Positions 1-14,862 of a DNA stretch of 35,544 nt are shown here, one piece after another. The translations under genes were made by a program, and so were the position numbers. Below the pieces are notes generated by a model. The model was not told the DNA's origin. It saw nothing but the letters and a program-made list of their open reading frames with translations, and did not search any database. Location: contig CAKZQZ010000040.1 in assembly GCA_937142855.1 (NCBI GenBank), positions 1 through 35,544 of the forward strand. Reading direction: 5' to 3'. Within the stretch, counting starts at the first letter, position 1, and every line of letters begins with the position of its first letter. The DNA comes from an uncultured Alphaproteobacteria bacterium. GTDB taxonomy: Bacteria; Pseudomonadota; Alphaproteobacteria; Puniceispirillales; Marisalimonadaceae.

Positions 1-104
1 TCTTTTGTATTTGAAAACCATTGATTAAAATTTTCATTGGGCTTTGAGGTTAACATATAACCAAGAGAACATAATACGATTACATTAAATACTAAAAATT
101 TCAT
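1..104 (-). CDS. Exported protein, N-terminal fragment only (window edge)
   Basis: Seen: a reading frame running off the left edge, starting with ATG at 104-102 and preceded by a strong AGGTGA ribosome-binding site that overlaps the stop codon of the gene at 113. The 34 visible residues begin with a lysine followed by a hydrophobic stretch (KFLVFNVIVLCSLGYML), which looks like a signal peptide or membrane anchor. Inference: it is the next member of the leftward envelope operon and is probably co-translated with the channel-like gene before it. An ExbD- or TonB-like partner would also start with an N-terminal anchor, but nothing visible identifies the family. Confidence 0.6.
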   Translation of the reverse strand, partial: MKFLVFNVIVLCSLGYMLTSKPNENFNQWFSNTK

Positions 105-112
105 TTCTTCAC

Positions 113-640
113 CTATTTGCTTAATAGTTTGGGGGATGTTTTAAGAGAATGAACAGTGAAATGTTCATAAATTATAATTAAAATACTTCTTAACAAGCCT
201 GACAAAGGTAAACCTATTACTGAAGTCATAAAAGCCATACTAAATTGTTGAGTTAATTTAGAAATAGTTTGATTGATTGTATCAATATCTAATTTAGATG
301 ATGATAACTCACCAATACCAAGACTTATTCCAAGAAGAGTGTAAGTCAAAGCTAAGGTGGAAATCAAATTAGATACTTGCAAACCTGTTTCAAACCAAAA
401 TTTTCTTCTTCTATTTTCACAATTATTAATATTTATAATACTTATAATAGCCATAAAAGTTAGGAAAGCTGTTATAATTAAAAAGCTATAGCCTAAAGTT
501 GATATTAGCCATTCAAATACAAAAGAAGGATTAGCATCTGAATAACCTACATATACAAATAGGATTAAAACTATACCTCCTAAGAAAATACTTATGGCTT
601 GAGAAGATTGGTTAAACCCTATCAATAAATAATTAATCAT
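113..640 (-). CDS. MotA/TolQ/ExbB-like membrane channel protein (putative)
   Basis: Seen: 175 residues with about four hydrophobic segments (near 16-33, 50-70, 90-110 and 137-158). Residues 90-158 resemble the core of the MotA/TolQ/ExbB family: a helix reading ALTYTLLGISLGIGEL, a linker, then a helix with FSMAFMTSVIGLPLSGLL, like the paired pore-lining helices of ExbB and TolQ. The short, basic 73-80 segment is much smaller than the large cytoplasmic domain of typical ExbB or TolQ (about 230-240 residues). Known: such proteins are inner-membrane subunits that use the proton gradient to drive envelope work through an ExbD/TolR partner. That partner is not visible here; the cut gene at 1-104 could be it. 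The start overlaps the previous stop (ATGA), so translation is coupled. Assignment is from pattern only. Confidence 0.55.
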   Translation of the reverse strand: MINYLLIGFNQSSQAISIFLGGIVLILFVYVGYSDANPSFVFEWLISTLGYSFLIITAFLTFMAIISIININNCENRRRKFWFETGLQVSNLISTLALTYTLLGISLGIGELSSSKLDIDTINQTISKLTQQFSMAFMTSVIGLPLSGLLRSILIIIYEHFTVHSLKTSPKLLSK

Positions 641-1020
641 CTTCTAGAGACCCTAGTATTCATAATATTATCTGTTGTTAAGCCGATTTTTTCAAACCAA
701 GTAATTGATAATGGTTTATTTCTTTCAAATGAGTTATGCACCAAGAAGGTTAAATCAAAATCCTCAAAAGCCCTTATTGTATGGGTGTCTGGATTTTTAT
801 TTATTTGTTTATTATTAATTGTCATCCTCTCTAAATCTAATAATTTCATTTTTGATTTTTCTAATTTTTTCTTCCTTTCTGCTATTGAAATTGTCTTATC
901 TAAAATGAGATTTAATGTCTTTGCTCTTTCTCTTTCAAGAGGCCCGATTGGGCTTGCATTCGCATATGAAGAAGCCACAAATGATATTAACAAAGTTAGT
1001 TTAGCTATTGATTTATACAT
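637..1020 (-). CDS. Small exported protein of unknown function with a coiled-coil segment
   Basis: Not recognised. Seen: 127 residues; N-terminal signal peptide with a probable cut after ANA (about residue 22), then a charged lysine- and leucine-rich stretch at about 30-70 likely to form a helix or short coiled coil, and a C-terminal part with FDLTFLVHNSFERN and an arginine-rich end. An AAGGA ribosome-binding site lies just upstream. The stop overlaps the start of the channel-like gene by 4 bp, and the gene follows the coiled-coil protein by 13 bp. Inference: a periplasmic component working with the neighbouring membrane channel; no catalytic motif is visible. Confidence 0.6.
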   Translation of the reverse strand: MYKSIAKLTLLISFVASSYANASPIGPLERERAKTLNLILDKTISIAERKKKLEKSKMKLLDLERMTINNKQINKNPDTHTIRAFEDFDLTFLVHNSFERNKPLSITWFEKIGLTTDNIMNTRVSRR

Positions 1021-1033
1021 TTTTTTTCCTTTC

Positions 1034-1906
1034 TTATAATTTTGTAAAAATATCTATTACGTTTTCTGGATCATTATAATTTTCACCTGAGGTGAAACTT
1101 CCATCTAACTTTTGATTTATTCCTGAAACATTTTCAGCTAAATTCATGGCATCTAGAGCTACAATTTTAGCCATATAACTCATCATCTGCTCTTTCATTT
1201 CTAAAACAGCAATTTCTGTTTCAATGTTGTATATATAATTTGAGATCGCCTCTAATTTATTATCAGAGTTATTCGAAAGCACACTTTTTTCATTCATTGG
1301 ATGGTTTTTTATCGCTATTTTGAGCTTTTCTATTGCGTTTTTGTTAGTTTTATATTGTTTAAAATACTTACTTTTTTCGTTAATATTTAGCGACGTTTTC
1401 TCTATTATTTTTAAATCAAGTTTCTGCGCCCTTTCTAGAGCTTTACTTTTATTATTCAAAAAAGCACTCTGATTTACCTTATTTTTATTTGTATATTTGA
1501 TATTATTTTTTATTTTTTCAAAGAAAGCTTTTTTAGTCTCAAGTTTCTGTCTCTTCATGATTATAAGATTATTCATATCCTTGATATAATCTCGTTTGTT
1601 AAGAATAATCTGGTGTTTAATTTCTAAAGTTTCATCTTTTGAAGCGTTTGGTAAGAAAGAATTAAGTTCATTGATTTTATCAATTTTACTTTTTATCTTA
1701 TTATCTGTAACTCTTAAGTTTGTGGCTAGTATAGAGGTTTTAAAGTCGTTATTTAAAACTTTATTCAAATGCTGAGGTGGCAAAACAAACATTTTCTCAA
1801 CAATTTGAGGTTTCCAGTCCCCTCCACTTACATTAGCTAGTGCTGGAAATGATGCAAATAAAGTAGGAGTTATAATCAAGAGTAATTTTATAGTATTTTT
1901 TTTCAT
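1034..1906 (-). CDS. Periplasmic coiled-coil protein of unknown function
   Basis: Not recognised. Seen: 290 residues, a clear signal peptide ending in ALA (about residue 24), then a long lysine-, asparagine- and glutamate-rich region (about 60-255) with heptad-like spacing and almost no glycine, typical of an extended coiled coil. The last 35 residues (VALDAMNLAENVSGINQKL onward) are less helical and may be a globular tip. An AAGGA ribosome-binding site precedes the ATG and only 12 bp separate it from the lipoprotein gene. Position next to an ExbB-like channel recalls operons where a periplasmic coiled-coil protein (DUF3450 type) accompanies a TonB-like energiser, but the sequence itself does not look like DUF3450 to me. 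Confidence 0.6.
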   Translation of the reverse strand: MKKNTIKLLLIITPTLFASFPALANVSGGDWKPQIVEKMFVLPPQHLNKVLNNDFKTSILATNLRVTDNKIKSKIDKINELNSFLPNASKDETLEIKHQIILNKRDYIKDMNNLIIMKRQKLETKKAFFEKIKNNIKYTNKNKVNQSAFLNNKSKALERAQKLDLKIIEKTSLNINEKSKYFKQYKTNKNAIEKLKIAIKNHPMNEKSVLSNNSDNKLEAISNYIYNIETEIAVLEMKEQMMSYMAKIVALDAMNLAENVSGINQKLDGSFTSGENYNDPENVIDIFTKL

Positions 1907-1918
1907 TTTTAATTCCTT

Positions 1919-2470
1919 TTAGTTTTTAGACCAATAATTAATACGTTTTAACTCAGATCTAATAACTCGATTATTATTTGTGAGAGCAAATTTACCTGAA
2001 ATCTTAGGAGCGCTATGATTTAAGATTGTCTCAATATTCTCAATGAAACTTGAGCCATCCATATAGATCAAATCTTTTTCAAAAGTATTTTTGTAATCTT
2101 TCAGATTTAATGAAGCCTGAATGAGGTTACCCGCCTTAATATAGTTTTGGATACTAAGTGCGATGTTCTGCATCCTCTCAACCTCGTTTATCATGTATGG
2201 ATTGCCTTTAATCAGCAAGTCACAATCACTTAAAATTTTAGCGCTTTTATTATATAAGCTCTCTGCTTCTTCATTCTTTGTTGCAGCAATTCTGTCAAAA
2301 TTTCTTCCATCTTCAATACAGCTGGTATAATTTCTTATGTTATTACTGAGTTTAATGTCTTCTAATTTTGTTTCTATTGAAGCACTTTGTTGATTGTCGA
2401 TAATATTACAACTTATAAGAGATAAACTTGTAATACCTACCAATATAAATTTTTTATAAATATTTTTCAT
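1919..2470 (-). CDS. Small lipoprotein of unknown function
   Basis: Not recognised. Seen: 183 residues with a lipoprotein signal peptide; the lipobox is LSLISC with the acylated cysteine at residue 21. Residue +2 is asparagine rather than aspartate, so outer-membrane sorting is expected under the usual +2 rule. The mature part is mostly helical and carries a CIEDGRNFD segment and a second cysteine pair region (SDCDLLIK), so a disulphide is possible. An AGGA ribosome-binding site precedes the ATG. Gene spacing of 12-19 bp on either side places it in the same leftward operon. Inference: outer-membrane anchored partner of the periplasmic coiled-coil proteins. Confidence 0.6.
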   Translation of the reverse strand: MKNIYKKFILVGITSLSLISCNIIDNQQSASIETKLEDIKLSNNIRNYTSCIEDGRNFDRIAATKNEEAESLYNKSAKILSDCDLLIKGNPYMINEVERMQNIALSIQNYIKAGNLIQASLNLKDYKNTFEKDLIYMDGSSFIENIETILNHSAPKISGKFALTNNNRVIRSELKRINYWSKN

Positions 2471-2489
2471 ATTTCAATTCCTATTCTGA

Positions 2490-2957
2490 CTAGTTTAAAT
2501 AAATAATGTCGTGTACAGAGTATGGTGTGGAAGATTGAATGTTAATTATTCCTCTTTTTGTCCTCACTCTAAGATTATAATGAGAAAAGTGATTAACTCT
2601 TTTATTCTTATAAAATGTTTTCTCCTGACATGTTTCTGAGACATAACTTGATGAATTATCAGTTGCCATCATTGACCCAAACAAGGCACCTATAGTACCA
2701 GCACCATGGACATCGCTTAATTTGTTGCCAATGACACTGCCAATCAATCCACCAACTGCCATGTTGGCAAAGTTATTGGGATTTCCATGTCTGGATTTTT
2801 GACATACGACCCTTGTATATGGCTCTGAGTAATTCGATGTGACGTTTACTGGATTTACGCCAATGACAACACCCCACCTAGATTTAAATTGCCCAGCAAG
2901 CGATAAACTTGCATTAGAAAATATGATTGTTATGGTGATAAATATTAATTTTTTCAT
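2490..2957 (-). CDS. Exported glycine-zipper protein
   Basis: Seen: 155 residues, signal peptide ending about residue 21 (LSLAG), then a segment at about 67-95 rich in small residues spaced as in glycine zippers (MAVGGLIGSVIGNKL and GTIGALFGSMMA). Flanking cysteines (VVCQKS and ETCQEK) sit either side of the zipper. Known: this layout (cysteine strand, two glycine-zipper helices, cysteine strand) is shared by the Rickettsia 17-kDa antigen-like and glycine-zipper 2TM outer-envelope proteins. First gene of the leftward operon, with its start facing the nuclease gene across about 75 bp. The exact role is unknown; membrane insertion or envelope association is the reasonable guess. Confidence 0.6.
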   Translation of the reverse strand: MKKLIFITITIIFSNASLSLAGQFKSRWGVVIGVNPVNVTSNYSEPYTRVVCQKSRHGNPNNFANMAVGGLIGSVIGNKLSDVHGAGTIGALFGSMMATDNSSSYVSETCQEKTFYKNKRVNHFSHYNLRVRTKRGIINIQSSTPYSVHDIIYLN

Positions 2958-3031
2958 TGTTAATCTCTTTATTTGTTTTTTATAATTTTGTTATGGAAAT
3001 TTTTGTGAGATTTTTGTTTGTTTTTAGAATT

Positions 3032-3844
3032 ATGAGTAAATTATTTTATTTTTTTTTATTAATTGTTTTATATTCTCAAACAAGTATTGCCCAAGCTAAT
3101 GAAGGCAATAAAAAAATTGAGAGCTTTTTAAAATCCAAAACTTTTTTAAAAAAAATACATCAAGAAAGTCCAGTAACTTTCTATTGCCAATGTAAATATA
3201 ATGCTAATAAGCCAAATTGGGAAAGCTGTGGTTTTCGCCCTCGAAAAGATAAAAAAAGGGCCTCTAGAATTGAATGGGAACATGTTTTACCAGCGTCATA
3301 TTTTGGTATCAAGTTTAATGCTTGGGCAAATGGTCATCCCCTCTGTGTTAGTAGCAAAGGAAAAATATTTAAGGGAAGGAAATGCACCGAAAAGGTACAT
3401 GAACTATATAGATATATGCAAGCTGACTTATATAACCTACAACCAGCTATTGGTGAGGTTAATGGTATAAGAAGTAATTATCAAATTGGAGAGATTGAAG
3501 GAGAAGAAAGAAAATTTGGTAAATGTGATATAGAAATAAAAAATAAAAAAGTTGAACCCACTCCTAAAATTCGTGGTGATATTGCAAGAACTTACCTATA
3601 TATGGAACAGACTTACCCGCAGTATGTAAAATTTAATCAATCAATTAAAAAACTTATTATAAGATGGGATCAAGAAGATCCGGTAGACGCATGGGAATGT
3701 AAAAGAGCAATTTTAATTTCTAATATACAAGGTAACACTAATAGAATTCTTCAGAACCGATGCTCTAATAAAATTAAAATTGGTAACACTAATCTCAATA
3801 TTAAAAAAACAGATCAAAACGATAAAATAGATAAGGGTAAATAG
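3032..3844 (+). CDS. endA: Endonuclease I family secreted/periplasmic nuclease (EndA-like)
   Basis: Non-specific endonuclease for DNA (and possibly RNA) outside the cytoplasm. Seen: from the ATG chosen here the protein is 270 residues and opens with a good signal peptide ending around SIAQA. The family's active-site motif is present (RIEWEHVLPAS, catalytic His about residue 84), followed by DLYNLQPAIGEVNG and RSNY, the metal-binding histidine/asparagine region of EndA-type (Endonuclease_1) ββα-metal nucleases. Several cysteines (near 52, 54, 66, 105 and 118) suggest disulphides. A longer frame begins at a TTG at 2957 but adds a second hydrophobic stretch and destroys the signal peptide, so 3032 is preferred; an ATG at 2993 cannot be excluded. 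Likely role: scavenging extracellular DNA for nucleotides and phosphate. Confidence 0.88.
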   Translation: MSKLFYFFLLIVLYSQTSIAQANEGNKKIESFLKSKTFLKKIHQESPVTFYCQCKYNANKPNWESCGFRPRKDKKRASRIEWEHVLPASYFGIKFNAWANGHPLCVSSKGKIFKGRKCTEKVHELYRYMQADLYNLQPAIGEVNGIRSNYQIGEIEGEERKFGKCDIEIKNKKVEPTPKIRGDIARTYLYMEQTYPQYVKFNQSIKKLIIRWDQEDPVDAWECKRAILISNIQGNTNRILQNRCSNKIKIGNTNLNIKKTDQNDKIDKGK

Positions 3845-4820: not shown

Positions 4821-5798
4821 ATGTTAATAGATGGCTTACAGTATTGCAATTGGTCTGAAAAAATATTTAGAGAATGGCGTGCCTCTAATATAACAGCTGT
4901 TCACGTTACAATCTCATACCACGAGCAATTTAGAGAGACAGTTTCTAATTTTGAAAAATGGAACAATTGGTTCGAAAAGTTTCCTGACTTGATCATGCCT
5001 GCCTATTACGCACAAGATGTCGAAACTGCAAAGACCCTAAATAAAACAGCGGTAATATTTGGATTTCAAAATCCTTCCCCAATTGAAGATGATATTGGCC
5101 TTGTAGAAATACTTCATAGGCTTGGTGGAAGATTTATGCAGCTTTCCTATAATAACCAATCCTTATTAGCAACTGGTTGTTATGAGGCTAACGACCCTGG
5201 AATTACTAGAATGGGCAAAGAAGTTATTAAAGAGATGAATAGGGTTGGAATGGTAGTAGACATGTCTCATTCTTCTGAGAGATCTACTTTTGAAGCAATG
5301 GAAATATCAAAAAGACCGATCGTAATAAGTCATGCTAACCCTTCTTTTTGGCATCCAGCTAAAAGAAACAAATCAAACGAAATATTATTAAAATTATCTG
5401 AAACAAATGGTTTCCTTGGCTTTTCATTATATCCACACCATTTAAATAATGGCAGTAATTGTAAGCTAGAGGATTTTTGTACAATGATTGCTAAAACGGC
5501 TGATTTAATGGGAGTGGATCATATCGGTTTTGGTTCAGATTTATGTCAAGATCAACCTGATTCTATAGTTGAATGGATGAGGGTTGGTAAGTGGACTAAA
5601 GAAATAGATTATGGTGAAGGATCTGCCTCTAATCCTGGGTTTCCTGAGATGCCTAATTGGTTTAAAGACAATAGAGACTGGTATAATATTATACAAGGGT
5701 TAAAAAAAATTGGCTTTAACGATGAAGAAGTTAAAAAAATTAAAGGTGAAAACTGGTTAAATTTTTTTAAAAAATCATTTACTTCTATTTCAAAATGA
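4821..5798 (+). CDS. Membrane-dipeptidase-like protein (peptidase M19 family) with altered metal site
   Basis: Seen: 325 residues of M19-type amidohydrolase barrel. Retained: H150 in VDMSHSS, H171 in ISHAN and D240 in GFGSDL, matching ligands of the second zinc and the catalytic acid. Changed: the N-terminal HxD motif that binds the first zinc reads IDGLQY, and the bridging glutamate motif (VEG) reads FGFQN with Q83. Known: M19 enzymes hydrolyse dipeptides and some lactams with a two-metal centre. As I recall, the same IDGL-type variant is encoded beside the dimethylglycine catabolism genes of Pseudomonas. Inference: a one-metal enzyme or non-peptidase. No ribosome-binding site is visible; a run of ten T directly precedes the ATG. 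Its stop overlaps the next start by 4 bp. Confidence 0.8.
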   Translation: MLIDGLQYCNWSEKIFREWRASNITAVHVTISYHEQFRETVSNFEKWNNWFEKFPDLIMPAYYAQDVETAKTLNKTAVIFGFQNPSPIEDDIGLVEILHRLGGRFMQLSYNNQSLLATGCYEANDPGITRMGKEVIKEMNRVGMVVDMSHSSERSTFEAMEISKRPIVISHANPSFWHPAKRNKSNEILLKLSETNGFLGFSLYPHHLNNGSNCKLEDFCTMIAKTADLMGVDHIGFGSDLCQDQPDSIVEWMRVGKWTKEIDYGEGSASNPGFPEMPNWFKDNRDWYNIIQGLKKIGFNDEEVKKIKGENWLNFFKKSFTSISK

Positions 5799-7498
5799 AC
5801 ATTTACCAATCAAAAATAAATTTTAATGATGACTTCCCTCTGAGACATCCAGCAGATGTTATGAAGTTAGATAGGTTAGGAAGCTTTCATCAAACACGTT
5901 TATCCTTTTCACGCCAATTAATCGATGAGCTAATTTCAAATAATTGGAAAACTGAAATTATAAAATGGAATATTAATTCCATAGGTACTGGCAAAGCTGT
6001 CATAAAAATATCTTCAAAACAAAGAATTTATTCTCTTGTAGTTTTTTGTCATCAAATAAATGATGATGAAAGAAGTGACAGGGTTATTGCTGAAAAGTGG
6101 GATATGACTTTTTCACTTTTTTTAGGAATTCCATCTAAAGAAGAATTAGATGAAATGTCAAAAAACTTAAAAATACAAGAATTAGGTAGGCACCTTCCTA
6201 AACAATTAACCCTTAGTAGAGCCAACAAATCAGTAAGAGTTTTTAATTCAGTTTTAAATAATTTATCAGAAGGAAAACAACCTGATAAGAAAATGATTAA
6301 CAATATTGGCTATCTTGTGAGAACAACAGCTGTATATGGCAATGGTAAATTTGGCATTGCTGATTATTTACCTGAAACAAATGACAACCCCTTAAACAAG
6401 CCTTTTCAGGCAGAAATGTTAACGGTTTATCTAATTAGATATTTTTCAATAGAACTAGTTAATTATTTAGCTAAAGAAAAAGGAAAAGATAAATCTATTA
6501 CTTTATCAAATGAAATTTCGAAACATGTTGGTGTTGGAAATGCAACAGGTTTAGGAATGGCACCATTTTTAATTAATCATCAAAAACTCATACATAAATG
6601 GATACAGGCTCGCGAAACAGCCATTTCGAGGGTGTTGTCTATAAAAAAATTGAGCACATATAATCAAACTAAAATTTTTAATCTTATCGAAAGAGCGTAT
6701 TTATATACAACACAATGGAATGTAGATGATGTAATTCAATTCAAAAGGATAAACGTCCTTAGAAAAGAACTAAAAGATATTTCAAATAATAAAAGTTTAA
6801 ATGGCCTTTTGAATAACGATTACCCACTACAAAATGTTTATTTACATTTTATAAATAAAATAAGTATCGAAACTCAAGAAATTCTTAATTCAATATTTAT
6901 TGAACCCTTTCCTGAACTATTAGACGATTTAACCAATGAAATGGGAACTGATGAACAAAATACTGTTGCAATAGGTTATAAAGTTAACGAATTAATAAAA
7001 ATTATCAAAGATAAATATAGTTGGGCCCTAAAAATTGATATTATGAACCCTGATGAAAATTTTTATTTTTGGTATACCTCTCAAGCTAAATTAGAGCCAA
7101 GATTAGGTGCTACACAAATAGATCATGGTAAAGAAAAGCAACTACCCTTTGATATCCCTCAACAAGTCCAAAATGGACTAAAAATTCTGACAAAGTTACC
7201 AGACGACATGACAGGAGCTGAAGCTATGATACTTCATCCTGAAATAAGAAATATTATAAAAAGAGTAATTATTAATGAGAATTTTCCGTTTAGCGAAATA
7301 CAAAACAATTTAGTCGGTAAAAAAGTTAGACCTATAGACTTACTTAGATGTAAATTAAGTTTTTTTGGAGCTACTAAATATGATCCTAAATCAAACTTAT
7401 GGACACGAATTACGTTATTCCAAGGAGCTCCATTGCCACATCAACTCCAAGAGGAAAATGCAACCGAGTGGCTCTTCCCATACCTAGTTAATGCTTAA
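5795..7498 (+). CDS. Conserved-looking protein of unknown function, 567 residues
   Basis: Not recognised. Seen: a soluble protein with no signal peptide or membrane segment. Its N-terminal part carries motifs such as RHPADVMKLDRLGSFHQTR and ELGRHLPKQLTLSRANKSVR, a glycine-rich stretch HVGVGNATGLGMAPFLI in the middle (about 247-263), and near the C-terminus FYFWYTSQAKLEPRLGATQ and GKKVRPIDLLRCKL. The density of charged and aromatic fixed-looking motifs suggests an enzyme, but I cannot name a fold. Start is fixed by the ATGA overlap with the M19-like gene; the DUF3726-like gene begins 2 bp after its stop. Inference: the three products are made together and act in one process. Confidence 0.7.
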   Translation: MNIYQSKINFNDDFPLRHPADVMKLDRLGSFHQTRLSFSRQLIDELISNNWKTEIIKWNINSIGTGKAVIKISSKQRIYSLVVFCHQINDDERSDRVIAEKWDMTFSLFLGIPSKEELDEMSKNLKIQELGRHLPKQLTLSRANKSVRVFNSVLNNLSEGKQPDKKMINNIGYLVRTTAVYGNGKFGIADYLPETNDNPLNKPFQAEMLTVYLIRYFSIELVNYLAKEKGKDKSITLSNEISKHVGVGNATGLGMAPFLINHQKLIHKWIQARETAISRVLSIKKLSTYNQTKIFNLIERAYLYTTQWNVDDVIQFKRINVLRKELKDISNNKSLNGLLNNDYPLQNVYLHFINKISIETQEILNSIFIEPFPELLDDLTNEMGTDEQNTVAIGYKVNELIKIIKDKYSWALKIDIMNPDENFYFWYTSQAKLEPRLGATQIDHGKEKQLPFDIPQQVQNGLKILTKLPDDMTGAEAMILHPEIRNIIKRVIINENFPFSEIQNNLVGKKVRPIDLLRCKLSFFGATKYDPKSNLWTRITLFQGAPLPHQLQEENATEWLFPYLVNA

Positions 7499-11212: not shown

Positions 11213-12115
11213 ATGGAAATTACGGTTTTATCTGATAACTTTGGCGTTGAAATTACTAAATTTGATTGTTCTCAAAATATTCAATTAAATGATATCAAGA
11301 CACTTAAGGATTTAATCCAAAGTAAACATTTTATCTGCTTTAAAAATCAAAATTTAGATGGTAATTCTCTGGCAAATTTTACAAAAAACTTTGGAGATTT
11401 AGAAGCATATCCGGAAAAAGACAAAACAAAAGGAAAAATAGAAATTTTTAATGTTTCTAATGTATCAGAAAAAGGGGAGCATTTATCACCAGATGATCAG
11501 AGGGTTATACTGCAGAAAAATAACTCACGTTGGCATACTGACAGTTCTTATAGATATTTTCCAGCATCTTTTTCTATACTTTATGGTCAAGAGACCCTTC
11601 CAAACGAAGCTGCCGGAGGTCAAACTGAATTTTCTAACATGTTAATAGCTTACGAAGATCTGCCAGAGGATAAAAAGGAGTTGTTAGAACCACTCCATCA
11701 AGTTCACTCCTATAATGACATAAGAAGACTTGAGCCTGGCTTACCAGAACTGACATACGAAGAAAAATCAAACTTTCCTCCAGTAACACACCCTGTAGTC
11801 AGGGTGCATCCTGATAGAAATTATAAAAAGTCTTTATATTTCACATCCAATACTAGCTTAGAAATTGGAGGAATGAGCCTTGAAGAAGGAAAAAAACTAC
11901 ACAGTTGGCTAGTACAATATATAAGCCAGGATCAGTTTTGTTATAAACATTATTGGGAAAAAAATGATCTTATAATGTGGGATAACAGAGTACTATTACA
12001 TAGGGTTATTCCTTATAACTATGCCAAGTATAGAAGAGCAATGATTAGAGGAACAGTTGAGGGCACAGTTCCTGTTCTTGGTCCATTTTCAAATCAAATT
12101 AGAATGCGGCTCTAA
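11213..12115 (+). CDS. TauD/TfdA family Fe(II)/2-oxoglutarate dioxygenase
   Basis: Seen: 300 residues, normal family length. Iron ligands H108 and D110 in WHTDSSYR, H263 in LLHRVIPY, and 2-oxoglutarate-binding arginines near 274-279 (YRRAMIRG); WDNR before the distal histidine is typical of the family. Known: these enzymes release sulfite from taurine, cleave aryloxyacetates or hydroxylate carnitine precursors and other acids. The surroundings (deacetylase and gamma-glutamyltransferase downstream, enolase/SDR/VOC enzymes divergent) do not point to taurine; no taurine transporter or sulfite exporter is adjacent. First gene of the rightward operon with a good AAGGA site. Confidence 0.9.
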   Translation: MEITVLSDNFGVEITKFDCSQNIQLNDIKTLKDLIQSKHFICFKNQNLDGNSLANFTKNFGDLEAYPEKDKTKGKIEIFNVSNVSEKGEHLSPDDQRVILQKNNSRWHTDSSYRYFPASFSILYGQETLPNEAAGGQTEFSNMLIAYEDLPEDKKELLEPLHQVHSYNDIRRLEPGLPELTYEEKSNFPPVTHPVVRVHPDRNYKKSLYFTSNTSLEIGGMSLEEGKKLHSWLVQYISQDQFCYKHYWEKNDLIMWDNRVLLHRVIPYNYAKYRRAMIRGTVEGTVPVLGPFSNQIRMRL

Positions 12116-12138
12116 TTAAGTTTAAATAGGAGTATAAA

Positions 12139-13032
12139 TTGGATAAAATACACCCCAATAAAAGACTACCCTACTCAGCTATTGTCGATAGAAAACGTCT
12201 AAAACTACCCAATGAAGCAAGGGTAATTATTTGGCCAATTCTTGCTTTAGAAGTGTGGGATATAGTAAGGCCTATGGCAAGAATGATTATCACGCCTCCC
12301 CAAGGCTCTCCACTTCTTCCTGATTTCCCAAATTGGAGTTGGCACGAATACGGTATGAGAGTTGGTTTTTGGCGTATAAAAAAGATGTTAGAAGAATTGA
12401 ATATAAAGCCCACTGTAACTTTGAATGCCAGAACTTGCCTAGAATACCCTCGCGTCGCTGAAGCTTGCCTAGAAAATAACTGGGAATTTAATGCTCATGC
12501 CTATGAACAAATTCCTATGCATAAACTAGATGATGAGGCGGGTAGTATTGCAAAAACAATGGATGTTATTAGTAATTTCTGTGGATATAGACCCAAAGGT
12601 TGGTTTGGACCTGGACTTACACAGACCTTCGATACCATTGATCACTTAGCATCGAATGGTATTGAATATATTGGAGACTGGGTTCTTGATGATCAACCTG
12701 TATGGGTAAAAACGAAAACAAACCCTATTGCAGCACTCCCGTATAACTATGAAATACATGATATTGTATTAATGGCGATACAGCATCATGAATCAAATGT
12801 TTATAAAAAAAGGTCACTAGATTATTTTGAAACTATTTATGAAGAAAGTGAAGAGAATATTAAGGTAATGGCTTTAGCTATGCATCCTTATTTGTCAGGA
12901 TCACCACATAGAATAAAATACGTAAGGCAAACCTTTGAAGAAATTTTATCCAAACCTGGAGTGATTTGTTGGGATGGAGTTCAAATATTAGAATGGTTTG
13001 AAAGAGCCGTTGGCAAACCTGGTTCTTTATAA
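12139..13032 (+). CDS. Polysaccharide deacetylase-like protein (PuuE/allantoinase-type)
   Basis: Seen: 297 residues. The start is a TTG, supported by TAGGAG seven bases upstream; no in-frame ATG fits better. The sequence has the NodB-like fold signature of the PuuE group: WSWHEYGMRVGFWR, FNAHAYEQ, GWFGPGLTQTFDT and a late ALAMHPYLSGSPHR. Known: PuuE-type enzymes act on allantoin and related C-N bonds rather than on polysaccharide. The usual metal-binding aspartate pair of sugar deacetylases is not evident. It begins 23 bp after the TauD stop. The product probably hydrolyses an amide or ureide in the same unknown pathway (inference). Confidence 0.85.
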   Translation: MDKIHPNKRLPYSAIVDRKRLKLPNEARVIIWPILALEVWDIVRPMARMIITPPQGSPLLPDFPNWSWHEYGMRVGFWRIKKMLEELNIKPTVTLNARTCLEYPRVAEACLENNWEFNAHAYEQIPMHKLDDEAGSIAKTMDVISNFCGYRPKGWFGPGLTQTFDTIDHLASNGIEYIGDWVLDDQPVWVKTKTNPIAALPYNYEIHDIVLMAIQHHESNVYKKRSLDYFETIYEESEENIKVMALAMHPYLSGSPHRIKYVRQTFEEILSKPGVICWDGVQILEWFERAVGKPGSL

Positions 13033-13071
13033 AGACATGCTTAATTATTAGTAATGCTATATTAATAACTT

Positions 13072-14862
13072 ATGAGTTATATAAAATTAATAAAAATATT
13101 TAAAATAAAAATTTTAAGCTTTTTTTTATTTATATTCATCAACAATGCTTTTGCCGTACAACAATCTGACAAAATAAAACCTGAAATTTTTAATATTAAT
13201 ACAGATAAATTTTTGAAATTAAAAAATGAGGGTAAACCAATAATAGCTCGCAAATGGATGGTTGTGACAGCTAATCAACAAGCTTCAAAAGTAGCTGCAA
13301 AAATTTTAAGCAAAGGGGGAACCGCAGTTGATGCCATGATATCTGCACAATTAGTTTTAGGATTGGTAGAACCAGAATCTTCTGGTCTTGGCGGAGGAGC
13401 CTTTTTAGTCTATTTCAATAGTTCAACTAATAAAATCACAACTTTAGATGGAAGAGAGACTGCACCATTAAATGTGGACGAAAAGATGTTTCAAGACCCT
13501 AACGGAAAAGCTATTAAATTTTTTGATGCTGTTGTAGGCGGTAAATCAGTTGGTACTCCAGGAACCCCTGCTTTACTTGAGAATGCTCATAAAAAATGGG
13601 GTAAAATTAAATGGTCAATTCTTTTTGAAGATGCAATAGAATTAGCTGACAAAGGTTTCGTAGTTTCAAAAAAATTAAGTTCATCTATACAAAAAAATCA
13701 AAAATCCCTTAGCAAATTTAAAAGAACTAAAAATTATTTTTTGCCTAATAACGAACCTCTTAAAGCTGGGATAATTTTAAAGAATAAAAATTATGCTAAA
13801 ACACTAAAAGAGCTAGCAAAAAATGGTTCAAAACCTTTTTATCAAGGCTCCATTGGGGATGAAATAATAGATACTGTACAGAATGCAAAAATTAATCCAG
13901 GTGTTTTAGATCAAAAAGACCTTCTAAATTATAGTGTTATAGAAAGAGAACCTTCTTGTATCGTCTATAGAAAGTATAAAGTATGCGGCATGGGTCCACC
14001 CTCTTCTGGTGCAATAACTGTTAATCAAATATTAGGAATGATAGAAAATTTTAACGTATCAAAACTTGGTCCTTACAATCCAGAGACATGGAGAATTATA
14101 GGTGATGCATCAAGGTTAGCCTTTGCTGATAGATCAATTTACATAGCAGACGATGATTTTATAAGTGTTCCTACACGAGAGTTAACTAATAAAACTTACC
14201 TTCAGAACAGAGCTAAAAATTTAAATAGCCTAAAAAAGATTGAAAATATCAAACCTGGTAATTTTGAAGATAAATTATCTCAAAATTTTACTGATGATAT
14301 TTCAATAGAATTACCTTCAACCTCACATATTTCTATAGTAGATGTGTATGGAAATGCTTTGTCTATGACAACCACAATTGAAAATGGGTTTGGCTCAAGG
14401 TTGATGACTAAAGGTGGGTTTTTATTAAATAATGAACTGACAGATTTTTCTTTTAAAACATATAAAAATAATAAAAGAATAGCTAATAGTATTGAGCCAG
14501 GTAAAAGGCCAAGGTCATCTATGGCACCTACTATTATTTTAAAGGATAAAAAACCAATTTATATATTAGGTAGTCCAGGAGGAAGTAATATAATTGGGTA
14601 TGTGGTGAATGCTATCATTTCCTTAATCGACTGGAAACAGGATGCACAAAGAGCAGCCTCAACAGCGCATGCTATAAATAAATTTGGAACCTATTACATA
14701 GAAAAAAATACACACCTAGTTAAACTTCAAAAATCATTAAAGAAGATGAATTTCGAAGTAAAATTAAGAAATTTTTCATCAGGACTAAATATAATACATA
14801 TAGATAAAAACTTATATGGCGGTTCTGATCATAGACGTGAAGGAATTGCAATTGGTGAGTAA
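13072..14862 (+). CDS. ggt: Gamma-glutamyltransferase (periplasmic, self-processing)
   Basis: Transfers or hydrolyses gamma-glutamyl groups of glutathione and related amides in the periplasm. Seen: 596 residues with an N-terminal signal peptide (to about FAVQ, residue 29). The autoprocessing nucleophile is T417 in PSTSHISIVD. Substrate residues match the family: R128 in LDGRETAP, SSM in RPRSSMAPTI and the GSPGGSNI oxyanion loop. Known: the precursor splits at the threonine into large and small subunits. No strong ribosome-binding site is visible before the ATG. It follows the deacetylase by 39 bp. Likely role: recovery of amino acids or glutathione; alternatively removal of a gamma-glutamyl tag in the neighbouring catabolic route (inference). 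Confidence 0.93.
   Translation: MSYIKLIKIFKIKILSFFLFIFINNAFAVQQSDKIKPEIFNINTDKFLKLKNEGKPIIARKWMVVTANQQASKVAAKILSKGGTAVDAMISAQLVLGLVEPESSGLGGGAFLVYFNSSTNKITTLDGRETAPLNVDEKMFQDPNGKAIKFFDAVVGGKSVGTPGTPALLENAHKKWGKIKWSILFEDAIELADKGFVVSKKLSSSIQKNQKSLSKFKRTKNYFLPNNEPLKAGIILKNKNYAKTLKELAKNGSKPFYQGSIGDEIIDTVQNAKINPGVLDQKDLLNYSVIEREPSCIVYRKYKVCGMGPPSSGAITVNQILGMIENFNVSKLGPYNPETWRIIGDASRLAFADRSIYIADDDFISVPTRELTNKTYLQNRAKNLNSLKKIENIKPGNFEDKLSQNFTDDISIELPSTSHISIVDVYGNALSMTTTIENGFGSRLMTKGGFLLNNELTDFSFKTYKNNKRIANSIEPGKRPRSSMAPTIILKDKKPIYILGSPGGSNIIGYVVNAIISLIDWKQDAQRAASTAHAINKFGTYYIEKNTHLVKLQKSLKKMNFEVKLRNFSSGLNIIHIDKNLYGGSDHRREGIAIGE

Follow-up and report, generated by a model that had tools for sequence, protein, structure and literature searches.

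The window analysed here, a stretch of 35,544 nucleotides, is a complete 35.5-kb contig (C40) of the 2.3-Mb, SAR116-type genome of an uncultured alphaproteobacterium (G000). Its left end holds five complete leftward open reading frames (ORFs) and a sixth that is interrupted by the contig end. An earlier note, made from the sequence alone, had read these six leftward genes as an envelope operon built around a small ExbB/TolQ-like channel. They form one end of a conserved, unannotated group of about 12 genes of marine bacteria, which includes a second, linked gene set and appears to encode a motor working across both membranes. This motor would have its relatives among the known motors of import and of the cell wall, while being distinct from each of them.

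The operon and its conservation

All six ORFs are located on the minus strand and are numbered here from right to left. Gene 1 (gz5, 2490..2957) encodes a 155-amino-acid (aa) exported protein that is 93% identical to the copy in genome G014. It had been described as a glycine-zipper protein; the exported ORF stands, but the match to Gly-zipper_YMGG (E-value (E) 0.013) remains under the Pfam cut-off and the family occurs in just 30 of the 96 loci compared; we call it glycine-zipper-like. Gene 2 (lipo4, 1919..2470) encodes a 183-aa lipoprotein with a lipobox at Cys21, as had been proposed, and the lipobox is kept in 76 of 89 family members. Gene 3 (cc3, 1034..1906) encodes a 290-aa exported protein, helix-rich as judged by eye, which is also the basis of its earlier description as a coiled coil, and gene 4 (sh2, 637..1020) a short protein of 127 aa, for which a simple hydropathy scan called no segment and a signal sequence was recognized by eye only. 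Gene 5 (exbB1, 113..640) encodes a 175-aa ExbB/TolQ/ZorA-like membrane protein with four hydrophobic segments called in the hydropathy scan. The cut gene 6 (tm6, 1..104) provides the start of an anchored protein with a single transmembrane (TM) segment, which was read by eye in the part within the window. The intergenic distances from gene 1 to gene 6 are 19, 12, 13, −4, and 8 bp; the noted spacing of 0–20 bp thus holds for four junctions, while genes 4 and 5 overlap by 4 bp.

Extension to the left, as the earlier note had suggested, was possible with contig C57 of the same genome, which overlaps the window start by 77 bp and carries the remainder of gene 6 (177 of its residues). Gene 6 is followed there by gene 7 (tm7), encoding another single-TM anchored protein (340 aa). 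The operon therefore comprises seven genes in this genome. C57 (L232:1-1850) additionally harbors a fragment of a NADH:quinone oxidoreductase-type subunit (Proton_antipo_M, E 1.5e-19), an ATP-synthase-alpha-like piece recognized by eye, and a cut D428 gene; the contig is possibly chimeric.

The conservation of the operon was assessed in 96 loci, 80 of which were picked because they encode gene 5. Many of them stop at contig ends, and since 12 of the 15 loci of one subset appear to be the same contigs as others, the locus counts are not independent. Strand and order of genes 2–7 were kept in 94 of the 96 loci, and in the two exceptional ones (L095 and L117) an ORF start had been drawn too far upstream. 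Genes 3 and 4 were each found in 94 loci. Genes 2–7 occur together across Alpha- and Gammaproteobacteria, with identities at the far end of about 33% for gene 5 and about 20% for gene 3; the possibility that the genes are not conserved together, named beforehand as a refutation, was not borne out. Within the order, gene 5 was present in 18 of 61 genomes (the window's own genome included, as in the gene 3, ExbD-like, and FliF counts for the order), that is, in 12 of 37 genomes of the genus and, outside it, in 6 of 24 genomes, which belong to two other families. Gene 3 was present in 19 of 61, namely the same 18 plus a contig-end fragment in G007. When a single genome of each species was scanned, 123 confirmed relatives of gene 5 were obtained, of which 80 were kept. 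They belong to SAR116, Rhodospirillales, Terasakiella, and Magnetovibrio and, among the Gammaproteobacteria, to Paraglaciecola, Glaciecola, Colwellia, Pseudoalteromonas, and Hahellaceae; in a sample of the class, 20 of 385 genomes carried gene 5. With gene 5 in 18 of 61 genomes and genes 2–7 ordered in 94 of 96 loci, the arrangement is beyond chance, and a chance or artefactual arrangement is ruled out by the conservation across the class and into the Gammaproteobacteria. One record titled Gammaproteobacteria (ARS1012, L085) shows the same arrangement as SAR116 genomes, and its title may stem from an error in binning.

Carriage by plasmids or phages is unsupported, as no match at E ≤ 1e-3 was obtained in a plasmid collection (one gene 5 homologue as query) or a phage collection (the window protein as query), nor was any found among viral contigs.

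A candidate ExbB/ExbD-type pair and its linked genes

By its sequence, gene 5 is related to the MotA/TolQ/ExbB superfamily, with ZorA as its nearest named relative. The window protein matched ZorA models of NCBIfam (E 2.4e-5) and PADLOC (E 6.5e-6), and 7 of 45 relatives matched NF033915 at E ≤ 0.01. When a 16-row profile of gene 5 was searched against the PDB, ZorA (8vvn) was the sole match (E 0.0046), and the alignment showed a two-helix core common to both. The full gene 5 alignment (45 of 51 thinned sequences) contains 21 invariant columns in its 45 rows, many of them Thr, Ser, and Gly in the two core helices. An AlphaFold model of the protein (mean predicted local distance difference test score (pLDDT) 91.9, predicted template modelling score (pTM) 0.82) was compared with known structures. 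In Foldseek, ranks 1–19 were all TolQ, ZorA, MotA, PomA, and ExbB chains (E 0.18–1.3), and VIA-align returned TolQ with Z 9.8 (129 residues, 3.0 Å), ExbB with Z 9.3 (130 residues, 3.1 Å), and ZorA with Z 9.3 (127 residues, 2.6 Å). The description of gene 5 as a shortened MotA/TolQ/ExbB-like protein, which the absence of such a fold had been expected to overturn, was not refuted by profile and structure comparison; the Foldseek E-values are weak, and the protein stays below the Pfam MotA_ExbB cut-off.

A second gene set is found beside the operon in roughly half of the loci (48–51 of 96 per gene, many loci being cut short). Its members are a protein with a single TM segment and a median length of 145 aa; a lytic transglycosylase of the SLT type (E 2.3e-23 in L051); two proteins that are about 560 and 185 aa long; and a Lon-like protein. 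Exported proteins of about 300 aa are added in a smaller number of loci. The two sets are joined in Terasakiella pusilla (L102), where 12 genes follow one another on the same strand. The window's genome has the second set on contig C109, where the Lon-like gene reads through. The families B324 and B309 overlap and may have been interchanged. A hydrophobic segment was called in 26 of 51 members of family B576, which makes its cytoplasmic label uncertain.

The single-TM protein of the second set is ExbD/TolR-like. A single TM segment was called in 46 of 48 members, and Glu12 lies within this helix in 33 of 33 rows (33 of 37 thinned sequences were aligned). The model of this protein (pLDDT 78.9, low in the linker) has a domain of the order beta-beta-alpha-beta-alpha-beta-alpha. 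TolR (5by4; Z 6.4, 70 residues, 3.8 Å) and ExbD (8vgc; Z 5.8, 61 residues, 2.4 Å) were on top of the fold ranking, with the first unrelated row at Z 4.8, while Foldseek gave E 0.31. In genome G014, the ExbD-like gene is located about 12 kb from gene 5. Among the 23 near-complete (≥90%) genomes of the order, the same 9 carry both genes (Fisher P 1.2e-6, kinship not removed). Correlations of between-family distances ranged from r 0.65 to 0.91, as expected from common descent. Based on the fold ranking, linkage, and co-occurrence, we take gene 5 and the ExbD-like protein as a putative divergent ExbB/ExbD-type pair with Glu in place of Asp. An ordinary MotA_ExbB/ExbD pair, encoded by adjacent genes on contig C55 and above the Pfam cut-offs, is present in the window's genome, so the new pair would not be its sole motor of this type.

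Gene 7 is composed of an N-terminal TM segment, a linker, and a C-terminal domain with an invariant Trp-Pro and Cys (41 of 60 thinned sequences aligned). Proline makes up at least 13% of the linker in 46 of the 80 members tested (median 14.7%). In seven relatives of the window's genus the proline content is 1.8–5.4%. The build of gene 7 thus resembles that of TonB and TolA, with a linker that is proline-rich only in other lineages. No Pfam match to the TonB C-terminal domain was found in the two gene 7 proteins scanned, and the gene 7 profile reached TonB in the PDB at no better than E 3.5, within the linker. PDB profile searches with the ExbD-like, gene 7, and B576 families (26 of 35 thinned sequences aligned for the last) returned no trustworthy match.

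The Lon-like protein (family B345) has a median length of 420 aa, and one TM segment was called in 38 of 50 members. Lon-type chains were on top of the list in the PDB search (best E 4.6e-4), over the part with the Lys. This Lys is found in 29 of 29 rows (29 of 31 thinned sequences aligned), and a Ser in the motif GxSWQ, equated by eye with the catalytic Ser of Lon, in all 22 rows that reach the site. B345 is a membrane-anchored protein with a predicted Lon (S16) domain. Single copies differ in further domains: one carries DUF4384, one FHA, and one is without a Pfam match. The Lon-like gene of the window's genome is located at L230:4421-5760 on C109. For gene 3, 38 of 50 thinned sequences were used for alignment.

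Proposed machine and comparison with known motors

We consider it probable that the two sets encode an ion-gradient-driven trans-envelope machine, which would represent a new ExbB/ExbD-energized class and be neither Tol-Pal, Ton, nor Zorya as defined. The logic of a trans-envelope machine, pointed out in the earlier note, is supported, and the idea of an energizer gains from the ExbD/TolR-like protein found in the linked set; this putative axle, the transglycosylase, and the Lon-like protein are the pieces added here. Starting from the established gene identity, linkage, co-occurrence, fold resemblance, and conserved residues, we infer a scheme for ring and axle, ion flow, force transfer, and the roles of the parts. 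Gene 5 would be the ExbB/TolQ-type ring subunit and the ExbD/TolR-like protein the axle, with Glu for the usual Asp in its membrane helix. The flow of ions, probably protons, would rotate or displace the axle. Gene 7, with its anchor, long linker, and C-terminal periplasmic domain, may act as a TonB/TolA-like force transducer, and gene 6 would supply another anchored subunit. Opening of the cell wall would fall to the linked lytic transglycosylase, and the products of genes 2–4 would form the periplasmic and outer-membrane end that receives the force. The Lon-like membrane protein and two other linked proteins may gate or regulate the motor. Building or reshaping a structure of the outer membrane or cell surface would be the likeliest task.

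Several results weigh against this interpretation. For gene 5, the deeper 45-row profile lost the ZorA match in the PDB and gave noise, the Pfam MotA_ExbB cut-off (22.9 bits) was unmet (7.8 bits, E 3.6 for the window protein), the Foldseek E-values were all above 0.1, the unrelated CorA channel reached a VIA Z of 8.7, and the model has a short turn at the site of the large cytoplasmic loop of TolQ. For the ExbD-like protein, the acidic TM residue is Glu, not Asp; further ExbD rows (Z 5.4–4.9) tied with the unrelated row at 4.8; PF02472, the Pfam ExbD family, was matched by 0 of 33 members at E ≤ 1; and hhalign comparisons with local TolQ/TolR-type alignments were not significant, the ExbD-like family reaching E 0.079, about the same as the unrelated control B189 (0.078). 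The gene was not found in 3 of the 18 carriers in the order (53–70% complete), and in the window's genome it lies on a different contig from gene 5. The gene 7 linker of this genome contains merely 5.1% proline and 27.6% Lys plus Glu.

Some of these results, namely the unmet Pfam cut-off, the ZorA match lost with the deeper profile, and the middling Z-scores of unrelated helical chains, are also what would be expected if gene 5 encoded an unrelated four-helix membrane protein with a likeness to ExbB that arose by convergence in hydrophobic helices. We regard this as quite improbable, since ZorA was matched in two libraries as well as in the PDB, the first 19 Foldseek rows stem from one superfamily, and an ExbD/TolR-like partner is linked and co-occurs. 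Among the relatives of gene 5, 9 of 45 matched Pfam MotA_ExbB at E ≤ 1 (best 0.02).

A second, derived copy of Tol-Pal or Ton would account for TolQ/ExbB and TolR/ExbD at the top of the fold rankings, for the TonB/TolA build of gene 7, whose linker is rich in proline in more than half of the family, and for a lipoprotein beside an anchored long-linker protein. Such an origin is very unlikely in our judgment: the genome already possesses the ordinary pair on C55, the set adds Lon-like, transglycosylase, and other genes, the helix of its putative axle carries Glu instead of Asp, and the proteins scanned contain no Pfam TolB, Pal/OmpA, or TonB C-terminal domain.

The best sequence matches of gene 5, with the shared two-helix core, point to ZorAB and would fit a defence of the Zorya kind, in which a ZorAB-like envelope motor senses phage entry and triggers cytoplasmic proteins. 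The patchy occurrence in the genus (12 of 37 genomes, many of them incomplete), the kinase, caspase-domain, and MoxR/VWA genes near some loci, and a weak match of the Lon-like protein to a CARF-Lon model (E 0.006) are in line with this view; such domains are known from conflict systems (PMC7159879). Gene 5, at 175 aa, lacks the long tail of ZorA, however, and its partner has a TolR/ExbD-like domain, with a peptidoglycan-binding domain in 0 of 33 members. In the scanned subset of the proteins of the loci, no peptidoglycan-binding domain of ZorB and no ZorC, ZorD, or ZorE was found. B576 was considered as ZorC and rejected, because 0 of 26 members matched any PADLOC model (E ≤ 1); single cc3, lipo4, tm7, ExbD-like, and B324 proteins were likewise without a PADLOC match at E ≤ 0.5. 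Gene 5 gave no match in the plasmid and phage collections searched, and the linked transglycosylase and lipoproteins fit envelope building. Zorya-like defence is hence an unlikely explanation.

MotAB stators belong to the same superfamily, and an accessory of motility, be it an extra stator or a flagellar outer-membrane disk, was considered. FliF was found in 9 of 9 near-complete carriers of the order compared to 7 of 14 others (P 0.014), and in 17 of 20 carriers of the class compared to 168 of 295 near-complete genomes (P 0.010). Some neighbours contain LpoB or CsgG domains, which we take to suggest FlgT or FlgO. Kinship was not removed from either FliF test, however, and the class carriers G255, G269, and G364 (92–98% complete) gave no FliF match, possibly owing to gaps in the assemblies. 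The FliF gene of the single-contig genome G042 lies about 1 Mb from the set. The model of gene 5 has no room for a torque domain, and an OmpA-like domain was found in 0 of 33 partners. The set is probably no flagellar stator, and a role in motility in general seems improbable, to about the same degree as convergence. Altogether, a FliF match was obtained for 15 of the 18 class carriers examined and for 15 of the 18 carriers in the order, the misses perhaps being due to gaps. A FliF match with one in-frame TAA in a carrier genome (G358:C1:1985929-1986450) is possibly a decayed flagellar gene.

The AglRQS-Glt gliding machinery and GldLM of type 9 secretion likewise combine a motor with periplasmic parts and outer-membrane lipoproteins. 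In contrast, 10 proteins of the set gave no significant NCBIfam match, with GltJ at E 0.087 in the Lon-like protein; no dedicated search was made. vWA-type transducers beside TolQR-like motors, a recently described class of motor-driven envelope systems that likewise lack an assigned task (PMC12204202), differ in that no vWA match was found in the anchored proteins scanned. Few motors of the ExbB/ExbD type are known to have a defined task, namely those of Ton, Tol, the flagellum, gliding, type 9 secretion, and Zorya (in part after PMC12204202). The layout remains unlike Tol-Pal, TonB, or flagellar systems within the family libraries and papers searched, and the gene set was not described in the open-access literature searched, including PMC12505986. 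If the proposed machine is real, it adds a new job to the ExbB/ExbD motor family and gives meaning to about 12 hypothetical genes of ocean bacteria. The set also offers a way to test if the ion can be carried by Glu instead of Asp.

Neighbouring genes

The genes associated with the machine were counted in single-linkage clusters, of which some members were tested. A kinase domain was detected with phmmer in 8 loci. All six kinases scanned, from 5 loci, combine kinase and FGE domains, and 5 of the 6 contain a peptidoglycan-binding domain; in five kinases checked, one TM segment lies between kinase and sensor. In a locus of the Hahellaceae (L128:2497-7059 and 11945-14524), a retroelement comprises a template (6943-7059), a reverse transcriptase (5876-6901; RVT_1 E 2.7e-23), and a bAvd gene (5520-5879; E 2e-16). 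Variable repeats end two kinase-FGE genes of this locus. Since 9 of 11 and 15 of 17 of their differences from the template fall on template adenines, the element qualifies as a diversity-generating retroelement. This locus is the only one in which the element was observed. Sensors diversified by retroelements occur in conflict systems, according to PMC7159879 and PMC10907252.

These neighbours allow for a signal-triggered envelope weapon or defence machine of a categorically new kind, in which phosphorylation by the kinase would fire the motor once a hypervariable sensor binds a foreign surface. The idea derives from the Hanks-type kinase with periplasmic peptidoglycan-binding and lectin-like (FGE) domains that adjoins the set in some Gammaproteobacteria, from the Lon-like protein with FHA, and from the L128 retroelement, which mutates the sensor end of the kinases. 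We give it a small chance, on a par with Zorya-like defence.

A caspase-type gene is common to 5 alphaproteobacterial loci, two of which were tested. In Terasakiella (L102:373-2710), a gene for a caspase-domain protein with an SH3 domain and a glycine-zipper-like gene adjoin the machine. In Colwellia (L119:248-2260), VWA (CoxE-like) and AAA (MoxR-like) genes lie next to the machine. Another cluster is common to 12 loci; in the single member of it that was tested, a CsgG and a peptidoglycan-binding domain were found. SAR116 genomes carry a block of exported proteins (379, 913, 530, and 504 aa) with the operon (L039:12452-19897 and L230:11774-15682). One member of this block has an LpoB domain (E 7.2e-8) and is, as we presume, perhaps FlgT-like.

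Within the window, the operon is preceded by a divergent endonuclease I gene (2957-3844, Pfam E 4e-32). Its start is probably the ATG near 3032, where a signal peptide was recognized by eye, and the listed TTG at 2957 is probably wrong. The interval 2958..3031, assigned to neither strand, is judging from the sequence a likely promoter region shared by gene 1 and the endonuclease gene.

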